Below the pieces are notes generated by a model. That model worked only from the letters and a program-made list of their open reading frames with translations, did not search any database and was not told the origin of the DNA. Shown piece by piece: positions 16,504 through 35,060 of a stretch of 37,153 bases of DNA; positions within the stretch are counted from its first letter, which is position 1; each line of letters begins with the position of its first letter. The position numbers were made by a program, and so were the translations under genes. The stretch comes from an uncultured Photobacterium sp. (lineage in GTDB: Bacteria; Pseudomonadota; Gammaproteobacteria; Enterobacterales; Vibrionaceae): positions 1 through 37,153 of the forward strand of contig CAMQXY010000021.1 in the NCBI GenBank assembly GCA_947039005.1, written 5' to 3'.

Positions 16504-16521
16504 TGCTATTTTCCAGCTAAA

Positions 16522-17109
16522 TTACGACAGCATTAAAATGCCACCAAAAGCTGCCATAACAATCCCAACCACACGCATTACACGTTGGTTTACTGCTGAT
16601 GTCATGACTAACTTACCTAATGCAATGCCTGATACATGTAAGATTGCGGTTGCTACAACAAAACCACTAAAGTATTCCATTGCTTGTGCATCAAGCGGCA
16701 TTTCCATACCGTGTGCCATGCCATGGAATAATGCGAATGCCATTACCAGACCCGTTGCCAATTTTTCAGACATACGACCACCAGCCAATAACATTGCACC
16801 CATGCCGATCACTGATAGAGCAATACCCATTTCAATGCCAGGTAATACCATTCCAGCAACACCTAACGCGCCACCGATAACCATAATGCCAATAAACGCC
16901 ATTGGCAGACGTGATACGGCTTTACCGCCAATTAATGCTGCCAATAGACCGACACCAATCATTACAGATAAGTGATCAAGGCCAGTAAATGGGTGTAAAA
17001 AACCCGTCATAAAACCGGTTGTAGTATGAGGACCAATATGTCCTGGATGTGCTAAAACGAGTGGTGAAAAAAGAGTAAGCGCACCAGCAACAATATGTTT
17101 AAGTTTCAT
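16522..17109 (-). CDS. hupE: HupE/UreJ family nickel permease
   Basis: This is an inner membrane protein of 195 residues with a cleavable-looking N terminus ending at LAHPGH and six further hydrophobic segments. The motif H-P-F-T-G-L-D-H-L near residue 40 is the HupE/UreJ metal-binding signature. A second His pair (FHGMAHG) lies near residue 130. These proteins take up nickel for hydrogenase or urease. Its place directly before hypFAB ties it to the hydrogenase. AAGGA precedes the ATG. Family assignment is firm; the Ni direction is inferred from family knowledge. Confidence 0.92.
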   Translation of the reverse strand: MKLKHIVAGALTLFSPLVLAHPGHIGPHTTTGFMTGFLHPFTGLDHLSVMIGVGLLAALIGGKAVSRLPMAFIGIMVIGGALGVAGMVLPGIEMGIALSVIGMGAMLLAGGRMSEKLATGLVMAFALFHGMAHGMEMPLDAQAMEYFSGFVVATAILHVSGIALGKLVMTSAVNQRVMRVVGIVMAAFGGILMLS

Positions 17110-18141: not shown

Positions 18142-20202
18142 TTAACGATAATCTTGGCTACTTAAACCCATTTTTTTCATACGAGACAATAACGTGGTTC
18201 GTTTTAGCCCCAATTGATTTGCGACCCCATTAGGTCCAGCGATTACGCCATGACAATTGATTAACGCATCCACTATCATCTGTCGATCAATCACCGCTGG
18301 TGTCGATTTAACCGCGGTGGATAGTGCAACCTGTGGCTCAATTGACTCGATAACCGTATTAACCACCATTGGCGATATCGACACCAACTCTTGAATCGGT
18401 ACATTCAGCACCTGACCACGGGTTAAAATAACAGCCCGTTCAATCACATTACGCAATTCACGTACATTACCCGGCCATGAAAATTGCTGCATAATCGCCA
18501 TATCTTCCACCGCAATCGAAGTAATGGTTTTACCCATTTTCTTGGCAAGTTCACGGGTAAAATGTTTAACCAATAAGGGAATATCTTCTGCTCGTTCTCG
18601 TAACGGCGGGATCTCAATCGGGAAAACATTTAAGCGATAATACAAATCATTACGAAATTGTTTCTGTTGTACCATTTGCAATAAATTGACATTGGTCGCG
18701 ACCACAATCCGTACATCGACACTGATTAGCTGGTTTTTACCGACACGCTCAATTTCATTTTCTTGCAAGGCACGTAATAATTTAGGCTGTAATTCCAGTG
18801 GCATATCACCAATTTCATCAAGAAATAGCGTGCCTTTATGAGCTTGTTCAAATCGACCCACACGTTGAGTAACGGCACCCGTAAATGCACCGCGCTCATG
18901 ACCAAATAATTCACTTTCAAACAAACCACTCGGGATCGCCGCACAATTCATCTTTACCATGTCAGTTTTACTGCGATGACTCATTTTATGGATCGCACGT
19001 GCAATCAATTCTTTTCCTGTGCCTGATTCACCTAAAATCAACACCGTACTATCGCAACTTGCTACTAATGCAACTTGCTCTAGCACTTTATTCATTACTT
19101 CACTTTGACTGATAATGTCATCAAAAATAGCATGTTCATCATAGCTATCCTCAACACTAATAAACTTGGTCTGAGAACGGTGTGGTGTTGCCGATTGATG
19201 CACTTTAATACTGTGCATCGCCAGAGCAACACGGGCTGATATTTGTTTAAATAATTCAATATCACCGGGTTGAAATTTTGCTTCAACCGCCTTGACATAA
19301 CAGATATAACCGATAGTTACACCACGGAATATCATCGGCATTATGCAAGCACTTTTCGCCTGTGATGAAAAATAAGGACTGTTATCGTCATGTTTTAATT
19401 TATAAATATCATTAGCCGTCAAAATAACTGCTTTATTATTTTCAACCGCATTTTTAATCATGCTGTCATCAGTGAAAAAATGGCATTGATAATCCATATC
19501 TCCATTAATATCACCACTAGAATATTGATTATAGTGGCCATCTTGAGACTGTATTATCGATAGCTCATTCATCCCAAATCGTTGATATAAAAAACGTAAT
19601 AACGAACTAATCAGTTCTTTTTTTGAACTCTGATTAATAACGGCATTGGTAATATCAACTAAAAACTGGAAGTTCTTATGTTCATTACTTAATTGTTGCG
19701 TTAAGGATGAAGCAATTTGATGCTCAAGAATATGTTCGATCATTGCAGCAACCATATTATTGAACAACTTAAATTGCTTTTCTACATCATCATAATCAGG
19801 TAAACGGAGATTAATATATTCAATAGCTCCTAACTGCTGATTGGCTATTAGTAGCGGTATTTTACAGTAAGTTTGGATATTAGTGTATGCCGGATGGAGA
19901 GATAATTGAGGAAAAGTTCGATAAAGTTCTTCGCCATTAATATAATGACTATACTCACAGGAAACAACATGATGTAAACTCAAACTATCTTCTGAATAAT
20001 CATACTGTTGAAACTTATTTTCCGCATCTTGATAATATAGAATTGATTGAGCATTTATGTCATCTTTTAGAATAATATTAACACGATCGGCATCAATAAA
20101 TAACAAACGTTCATTATTTAGAAAATTAATCACACCTGATATATCATTAATAGACAATAATGCCTTAGAAAAGATCATTAAATCGCTTTCAAAATTTTCC
20201 AT
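18142..20202 (-). CDS. fhlA: FhlA, sigma-54 activator of formate hydrogenlyase genes
   Basis: FhlA senses formate and activates the sigma-54 promoters of the FHL genes. I start it at the ATG at 20202 (MENFESDLM), giving 686 residues against 692 in E. coli. The frame stays open to an ATG at 20259, but a likely -10 (TATAAC, 20267-20262) sits just before that codon. Two GAF-like domains fill the first half. The AAA+ domain has GESGTGKELIARAIHKMSHR (Walker A), ESELFGHERGAFTGA (the GAFTGA loop that contacts sigma-54) and LFLDEIGDMPL (Walker B). A Fis-type helix-turn-helix (NQLGLKRTTLLSRMKKMGL) ends the protein. An FNR-type site lies upstream. Confidence 0.95.
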   Translation of the reverse strand: MENFESDLMIFSKALLSINDISGVINFLNNERLLFIDADRVNIILKDDINAQSILYYQDAENKFQQYDYSEDSLSLHHVVSCEYSHYINGEELYRTFPQLSLHPAYTNIQTYCKIPLLIANQQLGAIEYINLRLPDYDDVEKQFKLFNNMVAAMIEHILEHQIASSLTQQLSNEHKNFQFLVDITNAVINQSSKKELISSLLRFLYQRFGMNELSIIQSQDGHYNQYSSGDINGDMDYQCHFFTDDSMIKNAVENNKAVILTANDIYKLKHDDNSPYFSSQAKSACIMPMIFRGVTIGYICYVKAVEAKFQPGDIELFKQISARVALAMHSIKVHQSATPHRSQTKFISVEDSYDEHAIFDDIISQSEVMNKVLEQVALVASCDSTVLILGESGTGKELIARAIHKMSHRSKTDMVKMNCAAIPSGLFESELFGHERGAFTGAVTQRVGRFEQAHKGTLFLDEIGDMPLELQPKLLRALQENEIERVGKNQLISVDVRIVVATNVNLLQMVQQKQFRNDLYYRLNVFPIEIPPLRERAEDIPLLVKHFTRELAKKMGKTITSIAVEDMAIMQQFSWPGNVRELRNVIERAVILTRGQVLNVPIQELVSISPMVVNTVIESIEPQVALSTAVKSTPAVIDRQMIVDALINCHGVIAGPNGVANQLGLKRTTLLSRMKKMGLSSQDYR

Positions 20203-20296
20203 GCTAACATTAACTCTTGCTGATAATATGGCCCGAATAGCGAATAATAATCCAAGCATTTGTTATACAATTCTCAATCATTTTAATAACAAAGTA

Positions 20297-20310
20297 TTGA
20301 TCCATATCAA
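20297..20310. promoter_or_regulatory. FNR-type site upstream of fhlA
   Basis: TTGATCCATATCAA is a perfect match to TTGAT-N4-ATCAA. Its centre is about 48 bp before the transcription start predicted from the -10 at 20267-20262. It suggests that fhlA is switched on without oxygen. CRP cross-recognition is possible but the half-site TTGAT favours FNR. Confidence 0.7.
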
Positions 20311-20522: not shown

Positions 20523-22667
20523 TTACGCATTCTTAACATGGTTTTTCAAGCGTGCTTTCAAATTACTGTACTCAGTTTGTACGTAATTTTCAGCCCACGG
20601 TTGATCATCAATATTTTCTACTTTAACAGCACAATATTTAAATTCAGGCGTACCTGAAATAGGATCAACATGTTCAATGGTTAATTCATTACATGCACCA
20701 ATCCACCATTGGTATGTCATGTAAACAACACCTTTGTTAACACGCTCATTGTAGTTAGCTCGAGAGATAACTTTACCACGGCGAGAAGACACCCAAACTA
20801 ATTGTTGATCATCGATCCCCAACGCTTTGGCGTTATCTGGATGCATTTGCACATAACCAGGTTCATCAGCCAATGTTTGTAGCGCAGCACAGTTACCTGT
20901 CATTGAACGACAAGAGTAGTGGCCTACTTCACGCACAGTTGACAACACTAACGGGTAATCAGCATCTGGTTGCTCTAGCGGCGGACGCCAATCAGCACCA
21001 ATAAACATCCCTTTACCTGATGGTGTAGTGAACTTGTTATCTTTAAATAAGTAAGATGTACCTGGATGATCTTCTGTTGGACAAGGCCATTGCACAGATT
21101 TCAGATCAGCCATTTTCTCATACGTTACGCCCGCATAATCAGGGCATAATACACGTAACTCATCCCAGATTTCTTCAGTATTGTTATACGACATAGGATA
21201 ACCCATGTACGTTGCTAACAAACTAAAGATTTCCCAGTCCGGCTTCACATTACCCGTTGGGATCACTGCTTTATAAAAGCGTTGGAAACCACGGTCAGCA
21301 CTGCTGTAAACACCTTCATGCTCGCCCCAACTTGTCGCAGGGAAAATCACATCAGCAAATTCAGCGGTTTGGGTCATGAAGATATCTTGTACGATAACCA
21401 GATCCATCTTGCGCATAGTATCGCGCATTACTGCTAGATCTGCTTCAGTTTGTGCTGGATCTTCACCAAAGATATAGAAAGCTTTACAAACGCCTTCGTT
21501 TACCTTGTGACCTAATTCAGTTAAGCGGTAACCCGGCTTACCTGACAGCTCAACACCCCATGCGTTTTCAAACTTTTCACGGTTTGCATCAACATCGACA
21601 TTCTGATAGCCAGGGAACTGGTGCGGCAACATACCCATATCACAGGTACCTTGAACGTTGTTTTGACCACGAACCGGACCACAACCCACACCAGGACGAC
21701 CAAAGTTGCCCGTTAGCAATGCAAGACCTGCTAAACCACGAACAACATCAACCGCTTGACCATACTGAGTAACACCCATACCCCAAAGAATCATCGCTTC
21801 AGGTGCAGCAGCGTAAGTACGTGCCGCCAAGCGAATATCTGCCGCTGTAAGACCGGTTACTTCTTCTACTGATTCAGGTGTGTAACGTGAAGCAATTTCA
21901 CGGAACTCAGCAAAACCTTCAGTATTATTTTCAACGAAAGATTTGTCGTATAAGTTTTCTTCGATAATCACATTCGCTAACGCATTAACGAGTGCCATGT
22001 TCGAACCGTTCTTTAACGCTAACCATTGATCAGCAACACGCGCAGATTCGATCTTACGTGGGTCACATACAATAATTTTAGCGCCATTTGCACGGGCTTT
22101 AAGAATATGTCTTGCTACAACTGGATGAGAATCAGCCGCGTTGTAACCGAAAATGAGTAAGCATTTAGTAAGTTGAATTTCGGGAATAGCGTTACTCATT
22201 GCGCCATTACCTACTGTTGTCTCCAGACCGGAGACTGATGGTGCGTGTCACACCCTAGCACAGTGGTCAACATTGTTGGTTCCGATCACCGCCCTTGCGA
22301 GTTTTTGCATCACATAGTTGGCTTCGTTACCCGGACCGCGGGCTGAACCTGTTGTCATTATCGCATCTGGACCATACTGCTTTTTAATTGCCATTAGCTT
22401 ATCGCCGGCAAATTGAATAGCTTCGTCCCAAGACACGGCTTCTAAGGCTGATTCACGTGTACGGCGAATCATTGGTTGCTTTAGGCGTGGTGTTAATAAG
22501 TTGGTATCGTTGAGAAAATCCCAACCATAGTAGCCTTTCAAACAAAGTTGGCCTTCATTGGTACGACCCATTGCTGGCTCTGCTGCCACGACTTTGTTAT
22601 TTTCGACAACCAACTTTAGTTTGCACCCAGTACCGCAGTAGGGACAAACAACAATTGATTTTTTCAT
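20523..22667 (-). CDS. fdhF: FdhF, selenocysteine formate dehydrogenase H
   Basis: FdhF oxidises formate to CO2 in the cytoplasmic arm of formate hydrogenlyase. Read through one in-frame TGA at 22250-22248, the gene encodes 714 residues (E. coli 715). That TGA is codon 140, the same position as Sec140 in E. coli, in the context ARV-U-HAPSVSGLE. C8, C11, C15 and C42 bind the [4Fe-4S] cluster and K44 is the electron relay. GTDNV-type and TSWGEHEGVYSSADRGFQR segments bind the two molybdopterin guanine dinucleotides. Simple gene finders split it into two frames (139 and 558 residues). It follows hydN by 58 bp, with AAGG before the ATG. Confidence 0.97.
22219..22250 (-). promoter_or_regulatory. 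Sec TGA codon and bacterial SECIS hairpin of fdhF
   Basis: The TGA is at 22250-22248. Starting 12 nt later, GTCTCC pairs with GGAGAC around the loop GGTCT (22235-22219 on the minus strand). The loop keeps the GGUCU sequence that SelB recognises in E. coli fdhF. The distance from the codon also fits the bacterial SECIS rule. selA, selB and selC in this window supply the decoding factors. Confidence 0.9.
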
Positions 22668-22725: not shown

Positions 22726-23274
22726 CTAGCGAGTGATCGCTACAGCAGCATTGAGCGCAGCTGCTTCACGTTTTTGTTTGCTTGTTTCAATCAATGTTTC
22801 AGCTTCGATAATCTGAATTGCGCCAGTAGGACAAACTTCTACACACGCAGGACCTGCTTCACGATGAGAACACAAGTCACATTTCAATGCTTGAGATTTA
22901 GGCACCATACGCTTAAACAGCGATGCACCTTTTGATTCTTCAACCATCTTAGTCACGACATTCATTGCACCGTAGGGACAAGCAATGACACAGGTTTTAC
23001 ACCCGATACAGCGTGATTGAATCACTTTTACATAGCCATCTTCTAAAACGATAGCGTTATTAGGACAAACCTGCGCACAAGGTGCATCATCACATTGACG
23101 GCACATTACGGGCGTTGTCACATGCGCATTTTTCACCAAGGTCAACCGTGGTGAAAAATCTGCGGGTGCAACCCCTGTTAGCTTGCCATCTGCTTGATGA
23201 GAAACAACACAAGCAATTTCACAGGTTCGACACCCAATACACAGATTTGGATCTGCAAAAACAAACCGGTTCAT
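22726..23274 (-). CDS. hydN: HydN-type 4Fe-4S electron transfer protein
   Basis: This is a cytoplasmic ferredoxin-like protein of 182 residues with four [4Fe-4S] clusters in the HycB/HydN/DmsB pattern: CIGCRTCEIAC at about 12, CRQCDDAPCAQVCP at about 58, CIGCKTCVIACP at about 89 and CDLCSHREAGPACVEVCP at about 132. It is the first gene of a unit with fdhF and probably carries electrons from FdhF to the hydrogenase. It is about as similar in layout to HycB (30576-31190). AAGG precedes the ATG, and a sigma-54 promoter lies about 62 bp upstream. Confidence 0.93.
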   Translation of the reverse strand: MNRFVFADPNLCIGCRTCEIACVVSHQADGKLTGVAPADFSPRLTLVKNAHVTTPVMCRQCDDAPCAQVCPNNAIVLEDGYVKVIQSRCIGCKTCVIACPYGAMNVVTKMVEESKGASLFKRMVPKSQALKCDLCSHREAGPACVEVCPTGAIQIIEAETLIETSKQKREAAALNAAVAITR

Positions 23275-23335
23275 GGTCTATACCTTGTTGATATCGATAC
23301 ATCGCAACATAGTCTTATGTTGCTATTCCTTTTAA

Positions 23336-23350
23336 GCATTAGTTGTGCCA
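23336..23350 (-). promoter_or_regulatory. Sigma-54 promoter of hydN-fdhF
   Basis: On the minus strand TGGCACAACTAATGC matches TGGCAC-N5-TTGC with the essential GG-N10-GC spacing. The predicted start is near 23324, giving a leader of about 50 nt. A partial IHF-type site (AATCATTAATTTA, one mismatch) lies at 23361-23373. Confidence 0.85.
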
Positions 23351-23544: not shown

Positions 23545-24069
23545 TCAACAATGCTCAAAACCACCCGACCCTTGCCACTCAGGTAAGCGCTGGTAAATCG
23601 TTTCAACCGCGGTTTGCACCATCTCGGTTAGCGGAAATGAAAACGCCACAATAGCCGGTTGAATACCAACAAAAATAACCTCTGGCACAAAGGTTTTTAA
23701 GTCGTCAATCAAAAAGTTAAGCGGTAAACTATGGGTCGAAACCACATACATATCGACAATGGTTTCTGGATCAATAATTCGCACTTCGCCCGCTTGTTCA
23801 CCAATATCCGCCGCATCCACCACAATCACACGTTGGGGCTGCGCTTTACGAATAAGATGTAAACAATCTTCAGGCATCGAGCCACCTTCCAGCACGCTCC
23901 ATCCTGAAATCGGATTATCTTTGATCATTTTTGCTAATAATGGACCAGCGCCATCATCACCCATCATGCTATTACCGACAGTCAGCACGATATTACTAAC
24001 CGATAAATCAACATCATCGTTAGAAACACTTTCACCCATCACTGTCGACAAATTCACTTCCTGAAGCAT
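23545..24069 (-). CDS. hycI: HycI, hydrogenase 3 maturation endopeptidase
   Basis: HycI removes the C-terminal peptide of HycE after nickel has been inserted. The protein has 174 residues; E. coli HycI has about 156, and the difference is mostly an N-terminal extension of about 24. The core VGNSMMGDDGAGPLL carries the nickel-binding Asp. VVDAADIGEQAGEVRIIDPE and VSTHSLPLNFLIDDLK hold the second Asp and the His ligand. The last residues ...GSGGFEHC match the family end. A clear GAGGTG binding site supports the start at 24069. It is the last gene of hycB-I. Confidence 0.95.
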   Translation of the reverse strand: MLQEVNLSTVMGESVSNDDVDLSVSNIVLTVGNSMMGDDGAGPLLAKMIKDNPISGWSVLEGGSMPEDCLHLIRKAQPQRVIVVDAADIGEQAGEVRIIDPETIVDMYVVSTHSLPLNFLIDDLKTFVPEVIFVGIQPAIVAFSFPLTEMVQTAVETIYQRLPEWQGSGGFEHC

Positions 24070-24091
24070 ATTTTCACCTCATATAGCATAG

Positions 24092-24541
24092 TTAGCGTAT
24101 TCCTCGAATCATCATATACATCGTCGGTTCGCGGTGAATATCCCCAAGCGCGGTAATAAAATCACGGGTTAACTGCTGTGATAGTGCATTTTGAGTCGAG
24201 GTATCAATCCGATCAAACGCTAACGCCAACATATTAAGGTGTTCAGGGTAAATGGTGATTTCACCAAACACAAAATAGCCTTTCATTTTATTGAACGCTT
24301 CGCCGTCTTGTGGCAAACCGCTGATCCATGTCAGATATTCATCGCCTTCACATTCAATCACGGCTTTTAGACAATCAACTACGCCTAAATGGTGACCAAT
24401 CGCCAAGCTGTAATACATGATCTGTTTAGCTTCTTCAGGCACATCATAGCTTTCATCAACAAACTTACGCCCTAATGTATAAAAGTAGACGCGGCCTTGA
24501 AAATGGCGAGATTGTGTTAATTCCGCTAAAACATCACTCAT
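24092..24541 (-). CDS. hycH: HycH, hydrogenase 3 maturation protein
   Basis: HycH is needed to make active hydrogenase 3 in E. coli but its biochemical role is not known. The protein has 149 residues when started at MSDVLAEL, whose ATG overlaps the hycG stop by four bases (ATGA). The upstream part of the frame is discarded for that reason. It is a soluble protein with conserved-looking [13 protein letters not shown] and [23 protein letters not shown] segments. It lies between hycG and hycI, as in E. coli. Confidence 0.9.
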
Positions 24542-25377
24542 TGCTGACAACCTCCACATGATGGCGAACCTTGCTGTGCACTAGGGCACGCTTCAGAACC
24601 AGTGAGTGCCGCCATGGTCTTTGACAGTAAAATATTTACGATTTCAGTAAGTCGTGGATCATTTTTAGTCGCAAGGTAAGCACTGATTTTTTGATCAACA
24701 TCATCGGCACTACAAGTGGCGAGTACATTCATAACGTCATCAGCAATACGTTGTCCTTGTACATAACCTGCAAGTACACGCGCTTGACGTTCAATCATCA
24801 CTTTAATATCCAATGGAATTTCAGTGTGTTTTAAACTCGCCTTTTGTTCTTCAGGTTGGTGTACTTTGGCTTTCAATTTTTGGTCAAGCAAACCCAACGC
24901 AACCGCAAAACCAAAAATAGTTGCGGCTGGTGTCGGTGGACAACCCGGAATGTAAACATCTACTGGGACAATTTTATCCGTACCGCCCCACACACAATAA
25001 AGATCGTGGAAAATACCACCATCACAACCACATGCACCGTATGAAATCACAATCTTTGGATCCGGCGCGGCTTCATAAGCACGCAGCGCAGGCGCACGCA
25101 TTGCACGAGTTACCGAACCGGTATAAAGCAAAATATCGGCATGACGCGGTGAAGCGACAATTTTGATACCAAAACGCTCAGTATCAAAAATAGGCGTAGT
25201 TGCTGCAAAAATCTCAATCTCACAGGCATTACAACCGCCGCAGTCAACGCGGTAGACATACGCTGAACGACGAATTTCCTTGATCAGCGCATCTTTTAGC
25301 TTTTGGCTATTGGGTGGCAGTTCAACAGGTACGGTTTGAGTATGGGCTGTGCCTACTAGTTGTTTAATACCTTTCAC
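24538..25377 (-). CDS. hycG: HycG, small subunit of hydrogenase 3
   Basis: HycG is the NuoB-like Fe-S subunit that passes electrons to the NiFe site in HycE. The protein has 279 residues (E. coli 255). [11 protein letters not shown] near residue 46, [13 protein letters not shown] near 112 and [10 protein letters not shown] near 146 provide the four cysteines of the proximal [4Fe-4S] cluster. After the family core it has a tail ending [19 protein letters not shown], with three cysteines. The gene overlaps hycF by four bases (ATGA), which suggests translational coupling. Confidence 0.95.
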
Positions 25378-25922
25378 TTTTGCTCCTCAAGGTAACGTAG
25401 GTGACTGACATTTTCGCTGTCTAACATATTGTTGCTGCGACGACATTCAGGGCAGGTTTCGATTTGCTTACGACGTTCTTGAAGTTGTTCACCCGTTACG
25501 CCACTGTGCTCAAGGGTATCGATAACATATTCAAGTAACTTACGCGCCACAAATGGACGCTCACATTGACGACAATTGGCTAAAGTAAAGACCGCTTCAT
25601 CATAAAGATCGGCTTTACTGGTCACGGCTAACTCAAAATTCTGAGTCAGTTTAATCGCATGAGTTGGACACACTTCTTCACAACGACCACAGAAAATACA
25701 ACGTGCAGTTGATAGTTCCCAACGGCGAGTGCCCGCTTTAGTATCGGTTTCCATGATCAAGGCATTAGCAGGACAAGCACGCGTACATGCACCGCAAGAT
25801 AAACACTGATCAGCATCAAGTTCTGGTTTACCACGAAAATCTTCATTCACTTCCATCGGAGCAAAAGGATATTTAGTGGTAACTGATCCTGTTTTTATTA
25901 CCGTTTTTAATAACTTAAACAC
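25374..25922 (-). CDS. hycF: HycF, 4Fe-4S subunit of hydrogenase 3
   Basis: HycF is a NuoI-like ferredoxin subunit of 182 residues that links HycB to HycG. Two classical [4Fe-4S] motifs are seen: [13 protein letters not shown] near residue 40 and [13 protein letters not shown] near 76. A later group, CRQCERPF and CPECRR, resembles the zinc or Fe-S site seen in the E. coli protein. The start is GTG (MFKLLK), preceded by a strong AGGAGG. An ATG two bases upstream is out of frame. It starts eight bases after hycE. Confidence 0.95.
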
Positions 25923-25930
25923 ATGACCTC

Positions 25931-27685
25931 CTAAAGCTTGAATGGCGAATTCTTGCGGTCAATGCTGTATTGCTCAATCGCTTTATAAGGAACGGTTTTA
26001 CTGCGCTGTTTCTTAGTATCGACAATCGTTACACGGTCAGTACATGAGTAACAAGGATCTAAGCTACCAATAATTAACGGTGCATCAGCAACAGTGTTAC
26101 CTCGTAACATATAACGCAATGTTGGCCAGTTAGCGTATGTAGCCGCACGACAACGCCAGCGGAATAACTTCTGGTTATCGCCAGTCATACTCCAGTGAAC
26201 GTTTTCACCACGAGGGGCTTCAGTAAAGCCAAGTGCAAACTTGTTCGGTTTATAATCAAACCCTTCGGTTAGAATCGCACCCGGTGGCAAGTGATCAAGA
26301 CCGTATTCAATCACATTTAAAGATTCAAATACTTCACGTACACGTACCATCACACGTGAGAATACATCGCCATTTTCCATCACTTGAATATCAATCGGCA
26401 CACTGCCGTATGACTCTAATGATTGACCATGCACAGTACGTACATCGCGGTTAAAACCACTCGCACGAATCAATGGACCTACAGGGCTGTAATCACGAGC
26501 GATTTGCTTGGTTAAAATACCTACGCCTTCAGTACGGCTACCAATATTAGGCGTTGAAAGTAAAACATCCACCAGCTCAGAGAACTTCTGACGCACTTCT
26601 TTCACCATCGCAATACCTTGTACGCGCTGCTGTTTTAGAAAATCGCGACGTACACCACCGATAAGGTTCATGCCGTATGTTTTACGCGCACCCGTTAGTA
26701 GTTCAGCCAATTCCATGGTCTTTTCACGAACACGGAAAAATTGCATAAAGCCAGAGTCAAAACCAACAAAGTGACTTGATAGACCAATGTTTAATAAGTG
26801 GCTGTGTAGACGTTCAACTTCAAGCAATACAGTACGGATCATCTTGGCGCGGAATGGCACATCAACCGATAATGCATTTTCGATAGTATTGCTGTAACCG
26901 ACACTATGCGTAAAACCACAAATACCACATACACGGTCAGTTAACTGTGCCACTTCATGGTAACCCATGCGTGTTTCAGCTAATTTTTCCATGCCACGGT
27001 GAACATAGAACATACGGTAATCGGCATCAACAATGTCTTCACCATCAACGAACAAACGGAAGTGACCCGGTTCATCAGAGGTAATATGCAACGGACCTAC
27101 AGGTACGATACGGTTGCTATCATCACCTAGCTGGTTATCAAACTGGTAAGTTTCTGTTTCAGTGGTTGGTTGTGGACGCTGACGGTAATCCATCGCATCT
27201 TTACGTAATGGGTGTAGGTTTTCAGGCCAATCATCCGGCAGTACTAAACGACGCTCATCGGGTAAACCTACAGGACGTAAACCGTACATATCACGGATTT
27301 CACGCTCGCCCCATACCGCAGCAGGAATAGTTGGCGTAATAGAGATAAACTCTTGGCTATTAGCATCAACCAATACTTTTACCGTTACCCAGCTTTTCAC
27401 TTCACCTTCCATAGAAAGCGCATGATAAACCGCAAAATGACCGTTTAAAGTACGTTCATCGTTACCAAACGTAACCGTTAACCAGCCACCTTGATCGTAA
27501 TAAAGCCATTTCATCACTTCAACTAACGACGTCATTTTAACCGTGATAGTCACTTGGTTTTCTGTTTGCCACTCTTCATCAATAATCGCGGATGGAAAGA
27601 AATGATTCACACCATCGACATAGTTTTTACCAATACGACCCGCTTGTGGCTGCGAGTGAAATTGTTGAGATGTATTGTTTGTCAT
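25931..27685 (-). CDS. hycE: HycE, large NiFe subunit of hydrogenase 3
   Basis: HycE carries the H2-producing NiFe centre. The protein has 584 residues (E. coli 569). The first 170 residues are the NuoC-like domain and the rest is NuoD-like. Nickel ligands lie in RVCGICGFTHS near residue 245 and in DPCYSCTDR near 543-551. By comparison with E. coli the HycI cut should follow Arg551, removing a 33-residue tail that begins VTIVDTKKQR and ends in NSPFKL. The gene lies nine bases after hycD. No selenocysteine codon is present in it. Confidence 0.97.
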   Translation of the reverse strand: MTNNTSQQFHSQPQAGRIGKNYVDGVNHFFPSAIIDEEWQTENQVTITVKMTSLVEVMKWLYYDQGGWLTVTFGNDERTLNGHFAVYHALSMEGEVKSWVTVKVLVDANSQEFISITPTIPAAVWGEREIRDMYGLRPVGLPDERRLVLPDDWPENLHPLRKDAMDYRQRPQPTTETETYQFDNQLGDDSNRIVPVGPLHITSDEPGHFRLFVDGEDIVDADYRMFYVHRGMEKLAETRMGYHEVAQLTDRVCGICGFTHSVGYSNTIENALSVDVPFRAKMIRTVLLEVERLHSHLLNIGLSSHFVGFDSGFMQFFRVREKTMELAELLTGARKTYGMNLIGGVRRDFLKQQRVQGIAMVKEVRQKFSELVDVLLSTPNIGSRTEGVGILTKQIARDYSPVGPLIRASGFNRDVRTVHGQSLESYGSVPIDIQVMENGDVFSRVMVRVREVFESLNVIEYGLDHLPPGAILTEGFDYKPNKFALGFTEAPRGENVHWSMTGDNQKLFRWRCRAATYANWPTLRYMLRGNTVADAPLIIGSLDPCYSCTDRVTIVDTKKQRSKTVPYKAIEQYSIDRKNSPFKL

Positions 27686-27694
27686 ATCTATTAC

Positions 27695-28648
27695 TTACCA
27701 ACCAAAAATTAAAAAAATCAGTGCCAATACAGCCACCAAAAAAGCAGGGAAAATCGTGCGATGGATCTGAGTAAAACGTACACGCGCCATGGTGTTTTCA
27801 ACTAAACCTGCAATCAAGAACACCACAAACAATTTGATCAACAAAATAAGCGTTGCTGAAAATAAGCCGCCAAAACTCAAGCTACTTGCTTTACCCCAAG
27901 GAATGAAAATCGCAAGAAATAGCTGTGCAACAACAAGCTGTTTTAAACCTAAACCAAGTTTAACCATTGCCAATGCAGAGCCTGAATACTCTGTCACTGG
28001 ACCTTCTTGTAGCTCTTGCTCTGCTTCTGCGCTATCAAACGGCACTTTGCCCATTTCGATAAACAGCGCAAACGCACACACAATACCTGCAAGAATAACG
28101 GTTAATGGATGCTGCCAATGATTATTGGCTAACGCATGGCTGATATAACCTAAGTCAGTGGTACCGACACTTAACGCAACCACCACAATCGCAAGGATTA
28201 ATACTGGTTCAACTAAAATACCTAGCGTTAATTCACGGCTACTACCGATACCTGCAAACATGCTGTTTGAATCAATACCTGATAATGCGAAGAAAAAACG
28301 GAAAATCGCTAACAAGTAAATATCGGTAATAATGTCACCCGAAATTGGAAACGGTGACACTTGTGTAACAGTTGGTAACGCCATACCAATTAATAGCATC
28401 GTTACTACAAGTACCCACGGCATGATCCAGAAAATAAATCCGGAGTTAGCAGGAGCCACTGATTGACGACGTAATAATTTGGCAATATCACGGTAATCTT
28501 GTAAGACACCCGGCCCTTGGCGCGAATGGATTTTAGCGCGAATAACGCGAGAGAAACCTGTCGCAAGTGGCGCTAACATCAACATTAAAATGGCTTGGAC
28601 AATCGCTAATACAATCCAACCCGCAGTTGGCATTTCAAGTGGGGACAT
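27695..28648 (-). CDS. hycD: HycD, membrane anchor subunit of hydrogenase 3
   Basis: HycD is a NuoH-like membrane protein of 317 residues with about eight helices. The motifs SRQGPGVLQDYRDIAKLL near residue 42 and EMGKVPFDSAEAEQELQEGPVTEYSG near 200 are the NuoH/HycD signatures; the acidic loop faces the cytoplasm and the soluble arm. It anchors HycE/HycG to the membrane and may take part in proton handling. Its ATG shares one base with the hycC stop (TAATG). Confidence 0.95.
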   Translation of the reverse strand: MSPLEMPTAGWIVLAIVQAILMLMLAPLATGFSRVIRAKIHSRQGPGVLQDYRDIAKLLRRQSVAPANSGFIFWIMPWVLVVTMLLIGMALPTVTQVSPFPISGDIITDIYLLAIFRFFFALSGIDSNSMFAGIGSSRELTLGILVEPVLILAIVVVALSVGTTDLGYISHALANNHWQHPLTVILAGIVCAFALFIEMGKVPFDSAEAEQELQEGPVTEYSGSALAMVKLGLGLKQLVVAQLFLAIFIPWGKASSLSFGGLFSATLILLIKLFVVFLIAGLVENTMARVRFTQIHRTIFPAFLVAVLALIFLIFGW

Positions 28649-30579
28649 TAGAGACTAACTCCTGAAATGAGAGGAACGAACAACACCACAACCACCACGG
28701 CAATAATGCAGAATCGGCACACTTTACGACTATCCAGTGTTGGATTTTCGCCACCATTACTTAAGTAAGGCAGTACAAAACGCTCAGTAAATGACGTTTG
28801 GCGGTTGTTATAAATAAAACCAAACATATTACGCATCGGGCGAGTAATACTTGCCGCAGAAACTGTCATACGTTGTTCGTATTGGTAACCACACGCCCAA
28901 GGATCACCTTGATGACGACGCGCAAGACGACGGTGACGGAATGCATAAAGTAACGCGGCAGGCACTAACGTTAATAGCGCAAGTGCAATCGCAATCACGG
29001 GGGTAGAAAGGATAGCTTGATCAGCAACCGCAGGGTAAACCGTTAAACCATTCGCAACCGTTACGGGTGCCATGTTCAACATTGACGATGCAATTGATGA
29101 AAAGTACGGTGCGATCCACGGTGCACAAACACCTAATACCACACACAATACCGCTAACGATGTTGTCGCGGTGATCATCGCAGGACCCACTTCACGGGTA
29201 TTCGCTGCTTGCTCTGTTTTAGGCGCACCAGTAAAACAAATACCATACACTTTCACAAAACACATACACGCTAACGCACCCGTAAAGGCAAGCATTACCA
29301 TACCAAATGGACCAAACACTAAGTTAGCAACCGTACCGACTTTACCCATGCTAAATAGCGACTGGTAAATAAACCATTCAGACACGAAGCCATTTAATGG
29401 TGGTAAGGCACAAATCGCCAACGTACCAATCAAAAATGCAGCCGCTGTTTTAGGCATCGTTTTTGCTAAACCGCCCATATCATCCATTTCTTTGGTATGC
29501 ATACGGAATACGATTGAACCAGAGCCTAAACATAATAGACCTTTGAACACCGCGTGGTTTAACAAATGGTATAAGCCACCTAAAAGACCAAGCAATGCCA
29601 ATACTGGGTGATGAGATGCGATACCAATCATGCTCACGCCAACACCGATTAAGATGATGCCGATATTTTCAATGGTATGGTATGCCAATAATCGTTTGAT
29701 ATCGTGTTCTGCCAACGCATACATTACGCCAAGCACAGAAGACACCGCACCAAAGATTAGAACAAGGAAACCCCACCATAATTGGGTTGCACCAAGGAAT
29801 AAAATCGCAAACTTCAAAATACCGTAAATGCCAATTTTTACCATGACACACGAAATTAAGGTTGAGCAATATGACGGTGCTAGCGGATACGCTTTCGGTA
29901 ACCAGCCATGTAAACCAATACCTGCTGCTTTAATACCAAAACCAACCAATGCCAGTAAGAATACCAACGATGCGGTTGCACCAGTAACAGGATTATGCAT
30001 GATGGCACTGAATTGATAGCTGTCAGCATGAGAGGCAACAATCATAAATGCCACCACAACCAATAGGCTCGCGGCATGATCAGCAATAAAATATTGCAAA
30101 CCCGCTTTTTTACTTGTAACGCTACCATCACTGATAACAATCAGCCAAGAAGCCAGTGAAATGATCTCCATAAAGATAATAAAGACCATTACATTGGCTG
30201 ACACCACAAGGGCTGTCATCGCTGCAGCAAAAATATTGAAAAGTACATTAACCTTCCAACCGCCTTTGCCATAGTACTCTTCAAGGTAGTTAATTGAATA
30301 AACAGACGCTGCCATGGTGACCACAGAAATAACCACCACCATCAGTGCTGATAACATATCCATGCTAAACCAATGCCCGATTGCGGCAGTGGCATCGGCA
30401 GTATCATAACCTGTCGCTATAGTGCTAACCCCGGCAATGATGCCAAACAGACCACCAAACGCACTGATCACACCCGCAAGGCGTAAACTTTCTTGCTCAT
30501 GTTTACGCCCTTGATACGATAAAATCGCAGCCACGGCATAACTGATTAAAGCAAAACAAACTAAAACTAATGGGCTCAT
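28648..30579 (-). CDS. hycC: HycC, antiporter-like membrane subunit of hydrogenase 3
   Basis: HycC is related to NuoL/NuoM and Mrp antiporter subunits and has about 14 to 16 membrane helices. I start it at MSPLVLVCF, whose ATG overlaps the hycB stop (ATGA), giving 643 residues (E. coli 608). The frame is open further upstream inside hycB. Conserved features are GIKAAGIGLHGWLPKAYPLAPS, with the helix 7 lysine region, and HTIENIGIILIGVG with LLNHAVFKGLLCLGSG in helices 10-12. No other antiporter-like subunit is present, so this is the Hyc (FHL-1) form, not the larger Hyf form. Confidence 0.95.
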   Translation of the reverse strand: MSPLVLVCFALISYAVAAILSYQGRKHEQESLRLAGVISAFGGLFGIIAGVSTIATGYDTADATAAIGHWFSMDMLSALMVVVISVVTMAASVYSINYLEEYYGKGGWKVNVLFNIFAAAMTALVVSANVMVFIIFMEIISLASWLIVISDGSVTSKKAGLQYFIADHAASLLVVVAFMIVASHADSYQFSAIMHNPVTGATASLVFLLALVGFGIKAAGIGLHGWLPKAYPLAPSYCSTLISCVMVKIGIYGILKFAILFLGATQLWWGFLVLIFGAVSSVLGVMYALAEHDIKRLLAYHTIENIGIILIGVGVSMIGIASHHPVLALLGLLGGLYHLLNHAVFKGLLCLGSGSIVFRMHTKEMDDMGGLAKTMPKTAAAFLIGTLAICALPPLNGFVSEWFIYQSLFSMGKVGTVANLVFGPFGMVMLAFTGALACMCFVKVYGICFTGAPKTEQAANTREVGPAMITATTSLAVLCVVLGVCAPWIAPYFSSIASSMLNMAPVTVANGLTVYPAVADQAILSTPVIAIALALLTLVPAALLYAFRHRRLARRHQGDPWACGYQYEQRMTVSAASITRPMRNMFGFIYNNRQTSFTERFVLPYLSNGGENPTLDSRKVCRFCIIAVVVVVLFVPLISGVSL

Positions 30580-31190
30580 CGTGTTACTGCTCCACCTTTG
30601 GCTGACGCTGCACTGTCGGCTGCACACTCACGTTTAATATCACGTGCTTTAGCGATATTTGCTGCATCAATTAGCACTATCGCTTGTGTTGGGCACACTT
30701 CAGCACAAGCTGGTCCTTGTTCTCGGAAACCACACAAATCACATTTAACCGCAATGCTCTTTACTCCAGGTTCCCAAGCAAGAATATCTTGACCAAATGT
30801 GCTTGGAATTGAAGTCGAAGGGTTACTTGAACGAATGGTTGAAGGAATATAGGTATCGTAACTATTTGCCATCGCAATAGGTCGACTACCATCAAAAGCG
30901 ATTGCACCAAAAGGACAAGCAACAGCACATAACGTACAACCGACACATAATGTTTCATTAAGCATGACGCGATCTTGTTGCTTGGTGATCGCTTGCACTG
31001 GACATACTGTGGCACAAGGTGCATCTTCACAATGACGACACATCACAGGCGCTGTGGCATCATCTAATTTAACCACGGTTAGGCGGGGATGGCTTTGCAG
31101 TCCTTGTTGTTTATGTACTGTCGAACATGCTGCCATGCAGGTGCCGCAACCAATACACTTCTCAGGATCTGCAATTACAAAGCTTTTCAT
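30576..31190 (-). CDS. hycB: HycB, 4Fe-4S electron carrier of formate hydrogenlyase
   Basis: HycB is a ferredoxin-like protein of 204 residues (E. coli 203) that connects FdhF to HycF. Four [4Fe-4S] motifs are seen: CIGCGTCMAACS near 13, CRHCEDAPCATVCP near 53, CVGCTLCAVACP near 83 and CDLCGFREQGPACAEVCP near 150. A Ser/Thr-rich insert separates the third and fourth. It is the first gene of the hyc operon. The repressor gene hycA, which precedes hycB in E. coli, is absent. A sigma-54 promoter lies about 35 bp upstream. Confidence 0.94.
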   Translation of the reverse strand: MKSFVIADPEKCIGCGTCMAACSTVHKQQGLQSHPRLTVVKLDDATAPVMCRHCEDAPCATVCPVQAITKQQDRVMLNETLCVGCTLCAVACPFGAIAFDGSRPIAMANSYDTYIPSTIRSSNPSTSIPSTFGQDILAWEPGVKSIAVKCDLCGFREQGPACAEVCPTQAIVLIDAANIAKARDIKRECAADSAASAKGGAVTR

Positions 31191-31224: not shown

Positions 31225-31240
31225 AGCAAGAAATATGCCA
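31225..31240 (-). promoter_or_regulatory. Sigma-54 promoter of hycBCDEFGHI
   Basis: TGGCATATTTCTTGC on the minus strand has GG-N10-GC spacing and a perfect TTGC -12 element. The predicted start is near 31214, leaving a leader of about 24 nt before the hycB ATG. Confidence 0.88.
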
Positions 31241-31394: not shown

Positions 31395-31444
31395 TCGATG
31401 CCTAACAATGTGCGTTTTTTTAGTGTCTCGCCGCGATGATATAA

Positions 31445-31489
31445 AAAAACGCCCCTTACTTATTGTTGTGTTAAGTAAGGGGCGTTTTT
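31445..31489 (-). terminator. Strong terminator after selB
   Basis: AAAAACGCCCCTTACTTA pairs perfectly over 18 bp with TAAGTAAGGGGCGTTTTT around a 9-base loop, with T and A tracts on both sides. It separates the sel transcript from the hyc regulatory region. Confidence 0.92.
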
Positions 31490-31526
31490 CAATTTCAATG
31501 GGTATCGAATGTTATGTTACATGCCT

Positions 31527-33377
31527 TTATTGCCATGCTTTTAGGATAATACGCTCATCATCATCACGTTTAACCCAACCGTCTTTTTCCATACGATTCG
31601 CTAATGGAATCGAATATTTACGGCTTAATTCGGTACGATCTTTAATATCAGTCATAGTAATACGATCATGCGGTTGGTGATCAGCAATCACGGCTTTCAC
31701 AAGATCTAAATACACCCCCATATCAAAATAGATATTTTCATCAAGCGCAGTAATGTATTTTTGATGGCTTAATTGACGTAACCACTTTTTACCACCAGCA
31801 ATTTTGACTTTATTTAACTCAAGCCCTGCTTTGCCAAACTGACGAATTTGATGCAATATATCAAGCGCATCTTGGGGTAAATCATCTTCGTTATCACCTT
31901 GCCCAACACACCATTTACCGTAACTTAAATGCACTTTCTGTTGTTGCTTCAAACGCTGCATAATCAGTTCAATTACAGCATCATTGATCCGTAATCGACT
32001 GCATAACTCAGCAGAAGCCATTGAGATCCCCGCACCGAGTAATGTTTCAAGCTGTTGCGATATATCCGCTAGCCATTGATTATCAAAACAAAATGGCGCA
32101 ATGAAGGTTTGTTGTTCAGTGGGTTTAAAATCAGCCTCATGGCATTCAAAATAACCTTGCAAAACAAGTAACATTTGTCGTTGGGATTGTGGCTGTAATT
32201 GTTGAGGTAAATTATTGAGTACATTGTATAAACGGCGTTTTTGATAACCAAAAATATAATCAGTCCACACCACTTCTGCGCCATGTTGTAAACCACTCCC
32301 CCCTTTTTGGATCATCGCTAATCGTTGTCCAAATAATAACGGCATTGGTTTATCAAACACTAATCGCGCCAACTCAGTATTGGGAATGTAGCTCAAACGT
32401 GCTGTACCGTGCCACGTTCCCATCGCCACTTCCACTTGGCGTTGTTTTTTAACTTTTAACTTTATCGCCGTTTTGGTTAATCGCACAATACACTGATCAC
32501 GCAAGGTAATCTGTTGATTAATACCAGTGATCAACTGCCCTCTGCCGATATCTTTACGACCCACACCTTTAACATTTACCGCCACACGGCATGTTGCTGA
32601 AACTGACGTTAATTGCTGGTGATAAGCCTGAATCGATCGCACCGTACCAATAAGATTTGATGGATGACAACGTACTTTATCGCCAATCGCTAATTGCCCT
32701 TGTGCGAGTGTGCCTGTTAGCACCGTACCTATTCCGTTAACAACAAACACCCGATCAATATACATCAGAGGATCTGTCGCTTGTTCAACCACTGAATTAT
32801 CATCACTGTTTGCTGGAGCAACGATTTTATGGCGTGCAATGTTAACCTGTACGGTTTCAATTAAAAGCTGGCGTAATGCTTCAATGTTATCTTTTTTCAA
32901 TGCAGAAACAGTGACGATTTCAGGTAATAAACCGCTACGTTCCATCACTTGTTCTAAGACTTGATCTTCTATTTCCGCTAATTGCTCCGCGCTGACTTTA
33001 TCGCGCTTATTGATACAAACAACAATATCTTCAATCCCCATTGCATGCGCAACGTCAAGATGTGAAGTCGTCATTGGCATCCAGCCTTCATCGGCGGCAA
33101 CCACTAATAACAACACGTTAAGATGCCACACACCCGCGACCATATTACGTAAATAACGCTCATGCCCGGGAACATCAACTACCCCGATAGTATTACCATC
33201 ATCATCTTGAAAATGCGCAAAGCCTAAATCTTGGGTCATGCCTAATTGCTGCTCATGAGGACGCGCGGTGATCATGCCCGTCAATGCTTCAATTAATGCG
33301 GTTTTACCATGATCGACATGACCAGCAAGACCAACCACAGCTTGATATTGTTTTTTATGCGTTGATATCGCCACCAT
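31527..33377 (-). CDS. selB: SelB, selenocysteine-specific elongation factor
   Basis: SelB binds GTP, Sec-tRNA-Sec and the SECIS hairpin and delivers selenocysteine to the ribosome at UGA. The protein has 616 residues (E. coli 614). The G domain has GHVDHGKTALIEALTG at 19-34, DVPGHERYLRNMVAG near 68 and NKRDKV near 122. A beta-barrel domain and C-terminal winged helices, ending with DRTELSRKYSIPLANRMEKDGWVKR, bind the mRNA. The first 12 residues extend beyond the E. coli start. Its ATG shares a base with the selA stop, so the two are translationally coupled. Confidence 0.97.
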   Translation of the reverse strand: MVAISTHKKQYQAVVGLAGHVDHGKTALIEALTGMITARPHEQQLGMTQDLGFAHFQDDDGNTIGVVDVPGHERYLRNMVAGVWHLNVLLLVVAADEGWMPMTTSHLDVAHAMGIEDIVVCINKRDKVSAEQLAEIEDQVLEQVMERSGLLPEIVTVSALKKDNIEALRQLLIETVQVNIARHKIVAPANSDDNSVVEQATDPLMYIDRVFVVNGIGTVLTGTLAQGQLAIGDKVRCHPSNLIGTVRSIQAYHQQLTSVSATCRVAVNVKGVGRKDIGRGQLITGINQQITLRDQCIVRLTKTAIKLKVKKQRQVEVAMGTWHGTARLSYIPNTELARLVFDKPMPLLFGQRLAMIQKGGSGLQHGAEVVWTDYIFGYQKRRLYNVLNNLPQQLQPQSQRQMLLVLQGYFECHEADFKPTEQQTFIAPFCFDNQWLADISQQLETLLGAGISMASAELCSRLRINDAVIELIMQRLKQQQKVHLSYGKWCVGQGDNEDDLPQDALDILHQIRQFGKAGLELNKVKIAGGKKWLRQLSHQKYITALDENIYFDMGVYLDLVKAVIADHQPHDRITMTDIKDRTELSRKYSIPLANRMEKDGWVKRDDDERIILKAWQ

Positions 33378-34837
33378 TATTTAGCCTCAGTATTAATATA
33401 AGATTGAATATAATCGTCAAGCTGAACAATAAATACAGCATGATCACTGTCTAATAAGGTCGCGACATTTAATAGCAGTTGGTTACTATTAACATAACCA
33501 ATAATCGGGGTCGGTAACTCACGTAGCGCATCTAAATGCAGTTGTGCTTTACCTGGTAAAGTAAGTTTTAGACCATAACAAGGATAGGTTTCACTAGGAA
33601 TTGCGCCACCACCGACTTGCATCACCAGAGGAACAGCTTGAACATAAGGTTGCCAACGTTGCGCCCATTGTTGGGCTAACGTTTGGCTGATCTTGGCACG
33701 ATCTAACGCTTGTTGCGCCACACCAAAACCAGCAGGATCACGGTTTAGTTTCTGAACTAATAATTGCTCAAGCATTGATAAGACAATTCGCCCCGGACGG
33801 AAAGTACGCATCATCGGATTTTTGGCTAATCGCTGACAAAGATTTGGGCAACCCGCAATGATACCGGCTTGTGGTCCACCGATAATTTTATCGCCAGAAA
33901 AACACACTAAATCAGCACCCATCTGCAAATAACGCGGTAATGACACTTCACTTTGCGCATATTGTTCAGACGATAAACCCGAACCTTGATCGATCACTAA
34001 TGAAACATGCTCAGGTAAACGTTCCGCCACATCTTGAATATCTGGCGACTCAGTAAACCCCTGCATGGAGAAATTAGACTGATGCACCATTAATACCATC
34101 GCGGTATTTTCAGTGATCGCATTAATATAGTCATCACTGGTAGTGATATTGGTGGTGCCCACTTCAACAAGTTTGCACCCAGAAAGCGCTAAAATATCAG
34201 GAATACGAAAACCGCCGCCAATTTGAACTTGCTCACCGCGTGACACAATGACTTCTTTACCCGCCGCTAAAGCATGTAACACTAAATACACTGACGCGGC
34301 ATTATTGTTCACGACCACACAATCTTCAGCGCCAATCCAGCTCTGGATCAAGGTTGGTAATAAACCGTTACGATCACCACGCTTACCATCACTTAATTTC
34401 AATTCAAGATTGTTATAGCCAACGTTCACGGCTTTAACACTGTCCCAAATTTGCTCATCAATTGGCGAACGACCAAGGTTGGTATGCACTGCAATCCCAG
34501 TTGCATTAATCACCCGTTGCTGGCGACGGCGGTACAATTGACGACAACTATCAAGCACTAATGCCATCACATCAAGATGATTAACACCTTGAGTTTTAAA
34601 ATCAGGATGCTGACGAATAGACGCAAAAAGTTGACGCAGAGTATTTGTTACGACAGGTCGACTTAATAAGCGCACGTAATCGGCTAAATCTGAATGTTGA
34701 AGTAGTTGCTCAATCTGGGGTAAACGATAATTGATTATTGTTTTTTTTGATGACAAAAGTGATGAAGATGGTAGTTCTGAAGAGGTTATCGTGGTCACGG
34801 TAAGTTCCTTGGCTGAATTGCAGACAACAGCACTCAT
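33377..34837 (-). CDS. selA: SelA, selenocysteine synthase
   Basis: SelA is a PLP enzyme that converts Ser-tRNA-Sec to Sec-tRNA-Sec with selenophosphate. The protein has 486 residues (E. coli 463). NATGIAVHTNLGRSP near 111, ELKLSDGKRGDRN near 145 and FSGDKIIGGPQAG, with the PLP lysine at about residue 317, are all present. The first 30 residues are a Ser/Thr-rich extension not expected in SelA, yet no later in-frame ATG precedes the core. AAGG lies before the ATG. It sits 62 bp after selC on the same strand. Confidence 0.97.
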   Translation of the reverse strand: MSAVVCNSAKELTVTTITSSELPSSSLLSSKKTIINYRLPQIEQLLQHSDLADYVRLLSRPVVTNTLRQLFASIRQHPDFKTQGVNHLDVMALVLDSCRQLYRRRQQRVINATGIAVHTNLGRSPIDEQIWDSVKAVNVGYNNLELKLSDGKRGDRNGLLPTLIQSWIGAEDCVVVNNNAASVYLVLHALAAGKEVIVSRGEQVQIGGGFRIPDILALSGCKLVEVGTTNITTSDDYINAITENTAMVLMVHQSNFSMQGFTESPDIQDVAERLPEHVSLVIDQGSGLSSEQYAQSEVSLPRYLQMGADLVCFSGDKIIGGPQAGIIAGCPNLCQRLAKNPMMRTFRPGRIVLSMLEQLLVQKLNRDPAGFGVAQQALDRAKISQTLAQQWAQRWQPYVQAVPLVMQVGGGAIPSETYPCYGLKLTLPGKAQLHLDALRELPTPIIGYVNSNQLLLNVATLLDSDHAVFIVQLDDYIQSYINTEAK

Positions 34838-34899: not shown

Positions 34900-34991
34900 T
34901 GGCGGAAGAGGCAGGAATTGAACCTACCAAAGCTTATACAGCTCACATCGGTTTTGAAGACCGAGAAGGCCACCAGACCTCATCTCATTCC
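34900..34991 (-). tRNA. selC: tRNA-Sec (anticodon UCA)
   Basis: This 92-nt tRNA has an encoded CCA end. The anticodon stem TCGGT/ACCGA holds the loop CTTCAAA with anticodon TCA, as in E. coli selC. A 6-bp D stem (GAGGTC/GGCCTT), a long variable arm (GAGCT/AGCTT) and the T arm GTAGG-TTCAATT-CCTGC mark it as tRNA-Sec. The 5' acceptor strand is GGAATGAG (8 nt), but the 3' strand is CTCTTCC (7 nt) and lacks the A that would pair with T5. This leaves a one-base bulge. It lies upstream of selA without a clear terminator between them. Confidence 0.92.
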
Positions 34992-35032
34992 GAAATTCTT
35001 GGGCATGATAATGTAACTACCGTTACTATTAT

Positions 35033-35046
35033 TTGATTTACATCAA
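35033..35046. promoter_or_regulatory. FNR-type site upstream of selC
   Basis: TTGATTTACATCAA is a perfect TTGAT-N4-ATCAA. Its centre lies about 48 bp before the mature 5' end of tRNA-Sec and about 39 bp before a start predicted from a -10 CATTAT at 35013-35008. This is close to the class II FNR position, so anaerobic activation of selC-selA-selB is likely. Confidence 0.7.
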
Positions 35047-35060
35047 TTCGCAGTGCGAAT
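35046..35060. promoter_or_regulatory. 15-bp perfect palindrome next to the selC FNR site
   Basis: ATTCGCA-G-TGCGAAT is a perfect odd palindrome that touches the outer edge of the FNR site. It could bind a second regulator of the sel promoter. It has no T run and stands at the operator position, so it is not a terminator. Confidence 0.4.

Follow-up and report, generated by a model that had tools for sequence, protein, structure and literature searches.

The window (the whole stretch of DNA that was analysed, 37,153 nt, being contig C21 of the 3.69 Mb draft genome of an uncultured Photobacterium sp.) carries on its minus strand a variant gene for the selenocysteine (Sec) tRNA, selC2, followed by the genes for selenocysteine synthase (selA2) and the Sec-specific elongation factor (selB2), and beyond these a formate hydrogenlyase cluster (Table 1). 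The three sel genes are adjacent and co-directional, as in a selABC operon; 62 nt separate selC2 from selA, and the selA stop and the selB start overlap by 1 nt. An initial annotation, made from the letters of the window alone, had read them as one run with no terminator in between, and this was borne out by two hairpin scans (the second allowing loops of up to 12), in which no terminator-like hairpin was found from selC2 to the end of selB2. Behind selB2 there is a strong intrinsic terminator, which escaped the first scan because its loop of 9 exceeded the limit of 8. Because of this terminator, selC-selA-selB looks like a transcription unit of its own ahead of the formate hydrogenlyase cluster; the idea that its transcript runs on into hyfA was rejected, since the terminator and a sigma54-like site separate the two. 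The initial annotation included neither this terminator nor the second selC and selB of the genome, to which we return below. A gene for a Sel1-repeat protein lies upstream of the selC promoter and runs the other way (window positions 35915-37033, plus strand).

Table 1. Features of the sel unit and of the neighbouring formate hydrogenlyase cluster, in window coordinates.
Feature	Position	Strand	Basis
FNR-type box TTGATGTAAATCAA (transcribed orientation; palindromic)	35033..35046	-	exact match; column conservation
Predicted -10 hexamer TATCAT	35005..35010	-	TANNNT 30-35 nt from the box centre in relatives
Predicted transcription start	34998..34998	-	inferred from box and -10 geometry; box centre then at -41.5
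selC2, tRNA-Sec(UCA), variant, CCA encoded	34900..34991	-	ARAGORN 34900-34990; Rfam RF01852 34904-34991, 61.4 bits
selA2, selenocysteine synthase	33377..34837	-	TIGR00474, 450.8 bits; only SelA found in genome
selB2, Sec-specific elongation factor	31527..33377	-	TIGR00475, 261.2 bits, cut-off 242.25
Strong intrinsic terminator closing selCAB	31444..31490	-	hairpin -27.1 kcal/mol, z -7.98, then T-run
Sigma54-like promoter TGGCATATTTCTTGCT before hyfA	31225..31240	-	1 mismatch to TGGCACN5TTGCW
hyfA-B-C-G-H-I, hycH, hycI (hydrogenase-4-like, formate hydrogenlyase)	23545..31190	-	NCBIfam
Sigma54-like promoter TGGCACAACTAATGCT before hydN-fdhF	23335..23350	-	1 mismatch to TGGCACN5TTGCW
hydN-like ferredoxin protein	22726..23274	-	NF007658, 223.5 bits, below cut-off 260
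fdhF, formate dehydrogenase, in-frame TGA codon 140 (Sec, U140)	20523..22667	-	both halves match TIGR01591 best; TGA read as U
Second perfect FNR box, between fdhF and fhlA	20297..20310	-	exact match
fhlA-like formate-sensing sigma54 activator	18142..20259	-	NF011958, 549.2 bits, best match, below cut-off 830

The neighbouring cluster combines hyf genes, an FdhF with an in-frame TGA and a predicted hairpin behind that TGA, which places it among the Sec-dependent formate hydrogenlyases; the unit thus adjoins an anaerobic enzyme that would need Sec, as the initial annotation had supposed, namely FdhF with U140. Several of the hyf and hyc matches fall below curated cut-offs, and the gene letters were assigned by order and best match. 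The consensus of sigma54 promoters is TGGCACN5TTGCW, and with near matches to it before hyfA and before hydN-fdhF the hydrogenlyase genes look like FhlA/sigma54 units. Further neighbours are fdhD, a HupE-like gene, hypF and hypB; the region 14077-17109, considered as a TGA-split Sec formate dehydrogenase, proved to be hypF together with the HupE-like gene.

A family search covering 296 genomes gave SelB2 at 53% identity or more in 27 (counted from its rows), and SelB matches at 37-39% identity were not taken as SelB2. A contig scan gave one SelB2 relative at 73% (L102, from Photobacterium sp. GB-56), and the other 79 of its best 80 loci reached at most 42%. Of the 27 SelB2 genomes, 25 have a full-length FdhF with an in-frame TGA; the FdhF is partial in G127, which keeps the TGA, and in G150, where the part present does not include that codon. 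One genome (G017) has a Sec-type FdhF and no SelB2, and another (G199:C1:527653-529791) has, besides its Sec-type FdhF, a second FdhF without in-frame stop that is 79% identical to that of the window. A perfect FNR box also follows fdhF in 19/27 loci. Reading the box at 20297 as a class II site was rejected, given that TANNNT stands at the class II offset in 0/19 of these fhlA boxes; without that -10 spacing, the start of fhlA or its mode of control merits a look.

The tRNA itself is of an unusual, previously recognized form. By alignment and folding, selC2 has a 7-pair acceptor stem, GGAA(U)GAG/CUCUUCC, with one bulged nucleotide, a 6-pair D-stem, UCA and a G before CCA (G73), which makes it a 7/5 bulged tRNA-Sec, and its minimum free energy fold assigns the last acceptor pair to the T-stem. 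It is nearly identical in 10/10 genomes of the window's clade (clade A below), and scores 61.4 bits in Rfam, against 81.7 bits for the canonical selC1 of the same genome. Unusual tRNAs were reportedly treated by Mukai et al. in 2017. This bulged type is already published: the portion of Santesmasses et al. 2017 (PMC5330540) available to us describes bulged tRNA-Sec species of 12 pairs, which come from Gammaproteobacteria among other groups and belong for the most part to selABC operons; Photobacterium profundum 3TCK is mentioned as having two complete operons. A review, likewise seen in part, mentions minor 8/4 tRNA-Sec species (PMC7609411).

Upstream of selC2 stands the 14-mer TTGATTTACATCAA (35033-35046), centred 48 nt 5' of the tRNA gene and matching the FNR consensus at 10/10 positions. 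The hexamer TATCAT (35010-35005, minus strand) begins 30 nt from the centre of the box, which is the class II spacing. Because this is the usual distance, transcription is predicted to start near 34998, roughly 7 nt before position 1 of the tRNA, with the box centre at -41.5. The perfect FNR site that the initial annotation had reported near the class II position of selC is thereby confirmed, relative to a start that is itself predicted. A promoter-pair scan returned no sigma70-type hexamer pair for the selC2 promoter on the minus strand. In E. coli MG1655 the identical 14-mer lies 5' of nirB, at a site which we take to be a class II FNR promoter. An FNR orthologue is encoded in the genome (NF008365, 505.7 bits, cut-off 228), in which perfect boxes number 48, against 5 for the reversed pattern used as a control.

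Conservation was followed in 20 selC2-led loci, ten from clade A and ten from elsewhere in the same genus and from a second genus of the family. In 18 of them a box with no more than one mismatch lies 44-48 nt from G1 of the tRNA, and in ten it is perfect. Conservation in close relatives, suggested as a check when the site was first noticed, holds in full: both half-sites are perfect FNR half-sites in all ten genomes of clade A, where 13/14 box columns are invariant, compared with 43% of the other 136 columns. Outside clade A, the left half begins with A, G or C instead of T in eight of the 18 boxed loci. Two selC2-led loci are without the box, G060 (right half only, three mismatches) and G150 (none). 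At the former (L060) the selCAB-hyf cluster looks complete, the left half of the box is lost, the right half is kept and a -10-like hexamer is present; its selA was suspected to be broken by a TAA inside the tblastn match and was cleared by the family search, which gives a reading frame free of stops. In the second genus, three loci (L066, L068 and L069) have, beside their one-mismatch box, an extra perfect box 126-153 nt from the tRNA, so that their main site could be another one.

The spacing is conserved along with the box. TANNNT occurs at the class II offset (30-35 nt from the box centre) in 24/24 promoter-bearing loci, that is, the 18 boxed selC2-led loci and six orphan-selB2 loci with a promoter, and in 9/9 hand-picked representatives, among which no other offset between 15 and 49 shows it in more than one; among all 24 loci it is also found at offset 25 in ten, and the form TANNNT was picked after the sequences had been viewed. 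The fhlA boxes, none of which has this spacing, served as a control for its specificity. These counts leave aside L060 (three-mismatch box, TATCTT at offset 30) and L067 (no box), and the upstream sequence of L027 is too short for a promoter comparison. The -10 is weak at L065 (TACCGT) and L070 (TACTGT). The orphan genes stand under what was the selC2 promoter (L055-L059 and L063): these six relatives are without selC2 and selA2, and keep the box plus -10 directly before selB2 (one perfect, four with one mismatch, one with two). That the promoter is kept there after the loss of the genes in between suggests that it also serves selB2. Across the order, the exact pattern of box, -10 and GGAATGAG occurs in 2/394 genomes, both of the window's family (control: 0); being strict, this pattern says little on other selC types. 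Taken as a whole, the comparison supports a selectively conserved promoter of the FNR-type class II before selC-selA-selB.

The genome has a second Sec machinery. The canonical tRNA gene, selC1, lies on contig C72, where its neighbours are fdhE-fdnI-H-G, whose fdnG has an in-frame TGA, and a further selB (L016:4101-11565; no SelA1 between fdhE and selB1). Upstream, selC1 reads as sigma70-like (TTGCAG, 17 nt, TAAAAT). Among 20 canonical selC1 genes none has an FNR box within 60 nt and two have a one-mismatch box at 126 nt, and among the seven fetched genes of a third selC type there is no box within 200 nt. A one-mismatch FNR box is found 5' of fdnG (L016:11746), at the same distance in three other clade A loci and in none of the clade B loci. 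The initial annotation had suggested that oxygen may control the whole Sec decoding machinery, and this part does not stand as worded, as selC1 and selB1 sit beside fdnGHI and that selC has no such box. A weaker form does stand, as the only SelA found in the genome lies inside the unit, and FNR would therefore still gate Sec synthesis.

How the two machineries are distributed bears on this single SelA. Clade A (10 genomes including that of the window) has selC1, selC2, SelB1 and SelB2, with SelA2 as the only SelA found; in 10/10 genomes the gap between fdhE and selB1 is about 20 nt and holds no selA1, and in 9/10 fdnG has its TGA (the tenth contig ends too early). Clade B (7 genomes) has SelA1 as its only SelA above the cut-off, two SelA-like matches below the cut-off being left out of the counts. 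In six of the 7 the order is fdhE-selA1-selB1; selC2 and selA2 were found in none of the 7, and SelB2 is kept, six of the 7 having enough upstream sequence to show the orphan promoter described above. Their fdhF lies 33-46 kb from selB2 on the same contig in 5/7 genomes and on another contig in two. The seventh clade B genome (G127; loci L230 and L063) has a fragmentary selB1, no fdn match in the fetched stretch, incomplete selB2 and fdhF matches and an FNR box with two mismatches, so that both of its Sec channels look decayed. In a tree of FdnG/H/I from 19 genomes (without G127, and rooted by our choice on G037 and G076), clade A forms one group (support 0.995) and clade B another (0.998). 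G060 and G037 each have SelA1 as well as SelA2 and branch outside clades A and B, so the common ancestor of the two clades probably had both synthases.

The hairpins predicted behind the two TGAs differ, with apical GGUCU in fdhF against AGUCU in fdnG and with different stems, and the simplest reading would be that two SelBs with different SECIS preferences share one SelA. More fully, there may be two Sec-insertion channels, one of tRNA-Sec1 (8/5), SelB1 and FdnG and one of tRNA-Sec2 (7/5 bulged), SelB2 and FdhF, fed by one shared, oxygen-gated synthase. Each SelB would be kept for its own SECIS hairpin and SelA would be interchangeable, so that clade A could retain only the FNR-controlled SelA2 and its sister only SelA1, with selA2 and selC2 dropped and SelB2 left under the old FNR promoter. 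We regard this wider scheme as evenly balanced between right and wrong. If it holds, Sec would be an oxygen-regulated amino acid in clade A, SelB2 would work with the other tRNA in clade B, and the reciprocal loss would amount to a natural experiment on why SelA can be exchanged and SelB cannot; the questions it raises are which SelA accepts the two kinds of tRNA and which SECIS each SelB recognizes.

For the promoter itself, what can be read directly from the DNA is the box, its spacing, its conservation, the gene content and the single SelA, and from these we put at roughly 80% the probability that FNR acts at the box as a class II activator and drives selC2-selA-selB2 as one anaerobic transcript. 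Without oxygen, FNR bound at -41.5 and RNA polymerase at TATCAT would start a transcript about 7 nt 5' of selC2, which would cross selC2, selA and selB2 and end at the hairpin behind selB2, the read-through from selC to selA being an assumption. The tRNA would be released by RNase P and the other steps of tRNA processing, and SelA and SelB2 would be translated from the remainder. Sec produced in this way would go to the FdhF of the adjoining cluster, the structural genes of which appear to be driven by FhlA and sigma54. As no other SelA was found in clade A, the same switch would also set the Sec supply for the canonical selC1, SelB1 and FdnG, one SelA then serving both tRNAs. Should this be right, the oxygen sensor FNR would directly control a tRNA gene along with the making of an encoded amino acid, and Sec supply would be tied to the anaerobic enzymes that use Sec.

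Other readings of the promoter were weighed against these data. The class II position is used by CRP as well as by FNR, and CRP, or both regulators, might act at the site, so that the unit would answer to carbon supply and not to oxygen. Eight outlying loci have GTGAT, ATGAT or CTGAT as their left half, and because that half begins with A, G or C, CRP might act at these distant selC2-led loci. For the window it is decidedly unlikely: its box matches FNR at 10/10 positions and CRP at 7/10, the 11 boxes scored match FNR at 9-10 of 10 and CRP at 6-7 of 10, with FNR the better in each case (the two-mismatch box of L063 is outside the 11), the half-sites of clade A are perfect for FNR throughout, and the adjoining cluster is anaerobic by family. 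That the box is a chance or relic match with no function is barely credible. The DNA is AT-rich and rich in palindromes, and matches with up to two mismatches number 105 in the window where 46.7 are expected; perfect TTGATN4ATCAA occurs twice (35033 and 20297), against a mean of 0.11 in dinucleotide shuffles of the window, of which 1/100 reached two, and box and spacing survive across two genera while the flanks diverge, also where neighbouring genes have been deleted.

A functional box might still drive selC2 alone, with selA and selB2 on promoters of their own and oxygen acting on the tRNA and not on the enzymes. Processing of the tRNA would indeed cut the transcript in the short gap before selA, and promoter-like pairs are present on the minus strand inside selA, though this region has fewer of them than its shuffles. 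The lack of a detected terminator between the genes, the overlap of selA with selB and the promoter kept before selB2 in six loci without selC2 and selA2 all make this unlikely. We similarly doubt that selC2 is a non-functional or suppressor-type tRNA, such that only SelA and SelB2 matter. Its lower Rfam score and imperfect acceptor stem would fit that reading, as would the ability of clade B to do without it; against this, the gene is nearly unchanged throughout clade A, its D-stem and G-CCA end are kept, and the fold is one described, in the text available from PMC5330540, as a tRNA-Sec type found mostly in selABC operons.

Related systems are known, and parts of this one are in print. Among the literature matches listed (mostly non-subscription literature), none connects FNR with selC or selA, and none describes a shared SelA after reciprocal SelA loss; the words FNR and Photobacterium are absent from a 2026 review of the prokaryotic selenoproteome (PMC13188914). 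It has been published, to go by the excerpts of these papers, that the Sec trait has moved horizontally, with P. profundum and Treponema denticola involved (PMC1794560), and a selB-selC locus has been described for P. damselae (PMC8124441). The closest parallel to the genes is provided by the selABC operons with 7/5 bulged tRNA-Sec (PMC5330540), which have the 7-pair bulged acceptor and selC beside selA and selB in Gammaproteobacteria; in that paper, however, the words FNR and promoter are absent from the main text, and the portion available has no case of one SelA with two tRNAs. Judging from part of its description, the formate hydrogenlyase-2 cluster of Pectobacterium atrosepticum (PMC7384014) likewise brings together hyf, fdhF, a regulator of the FhlA/HyfR type and hypF, but its FdhF uses Cys and there is no Sec machinery, whereas here a Sec FdhF belongs to a cluster led by selCAB. 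The sel genes of E. coli have the same functions, and its selC carries UCA, yet there is neither selA nor selB within the surrounding 801 bases, and no FNR-like box (up to two mismatches) in the 322 nt upstream. With the class II FNR promoters of the E. coli nirB type the present site shares the box centre at a predicted -41.5, the -10 element and the identical 14-mer; it differs from them in that a tRNA gene comes first and that what would be controlled is the synthesis and decoding of an amino acid, not a respiratory or fermentative enzyme. If the reading holds, this would be a known class of promoter on an unexpected target.
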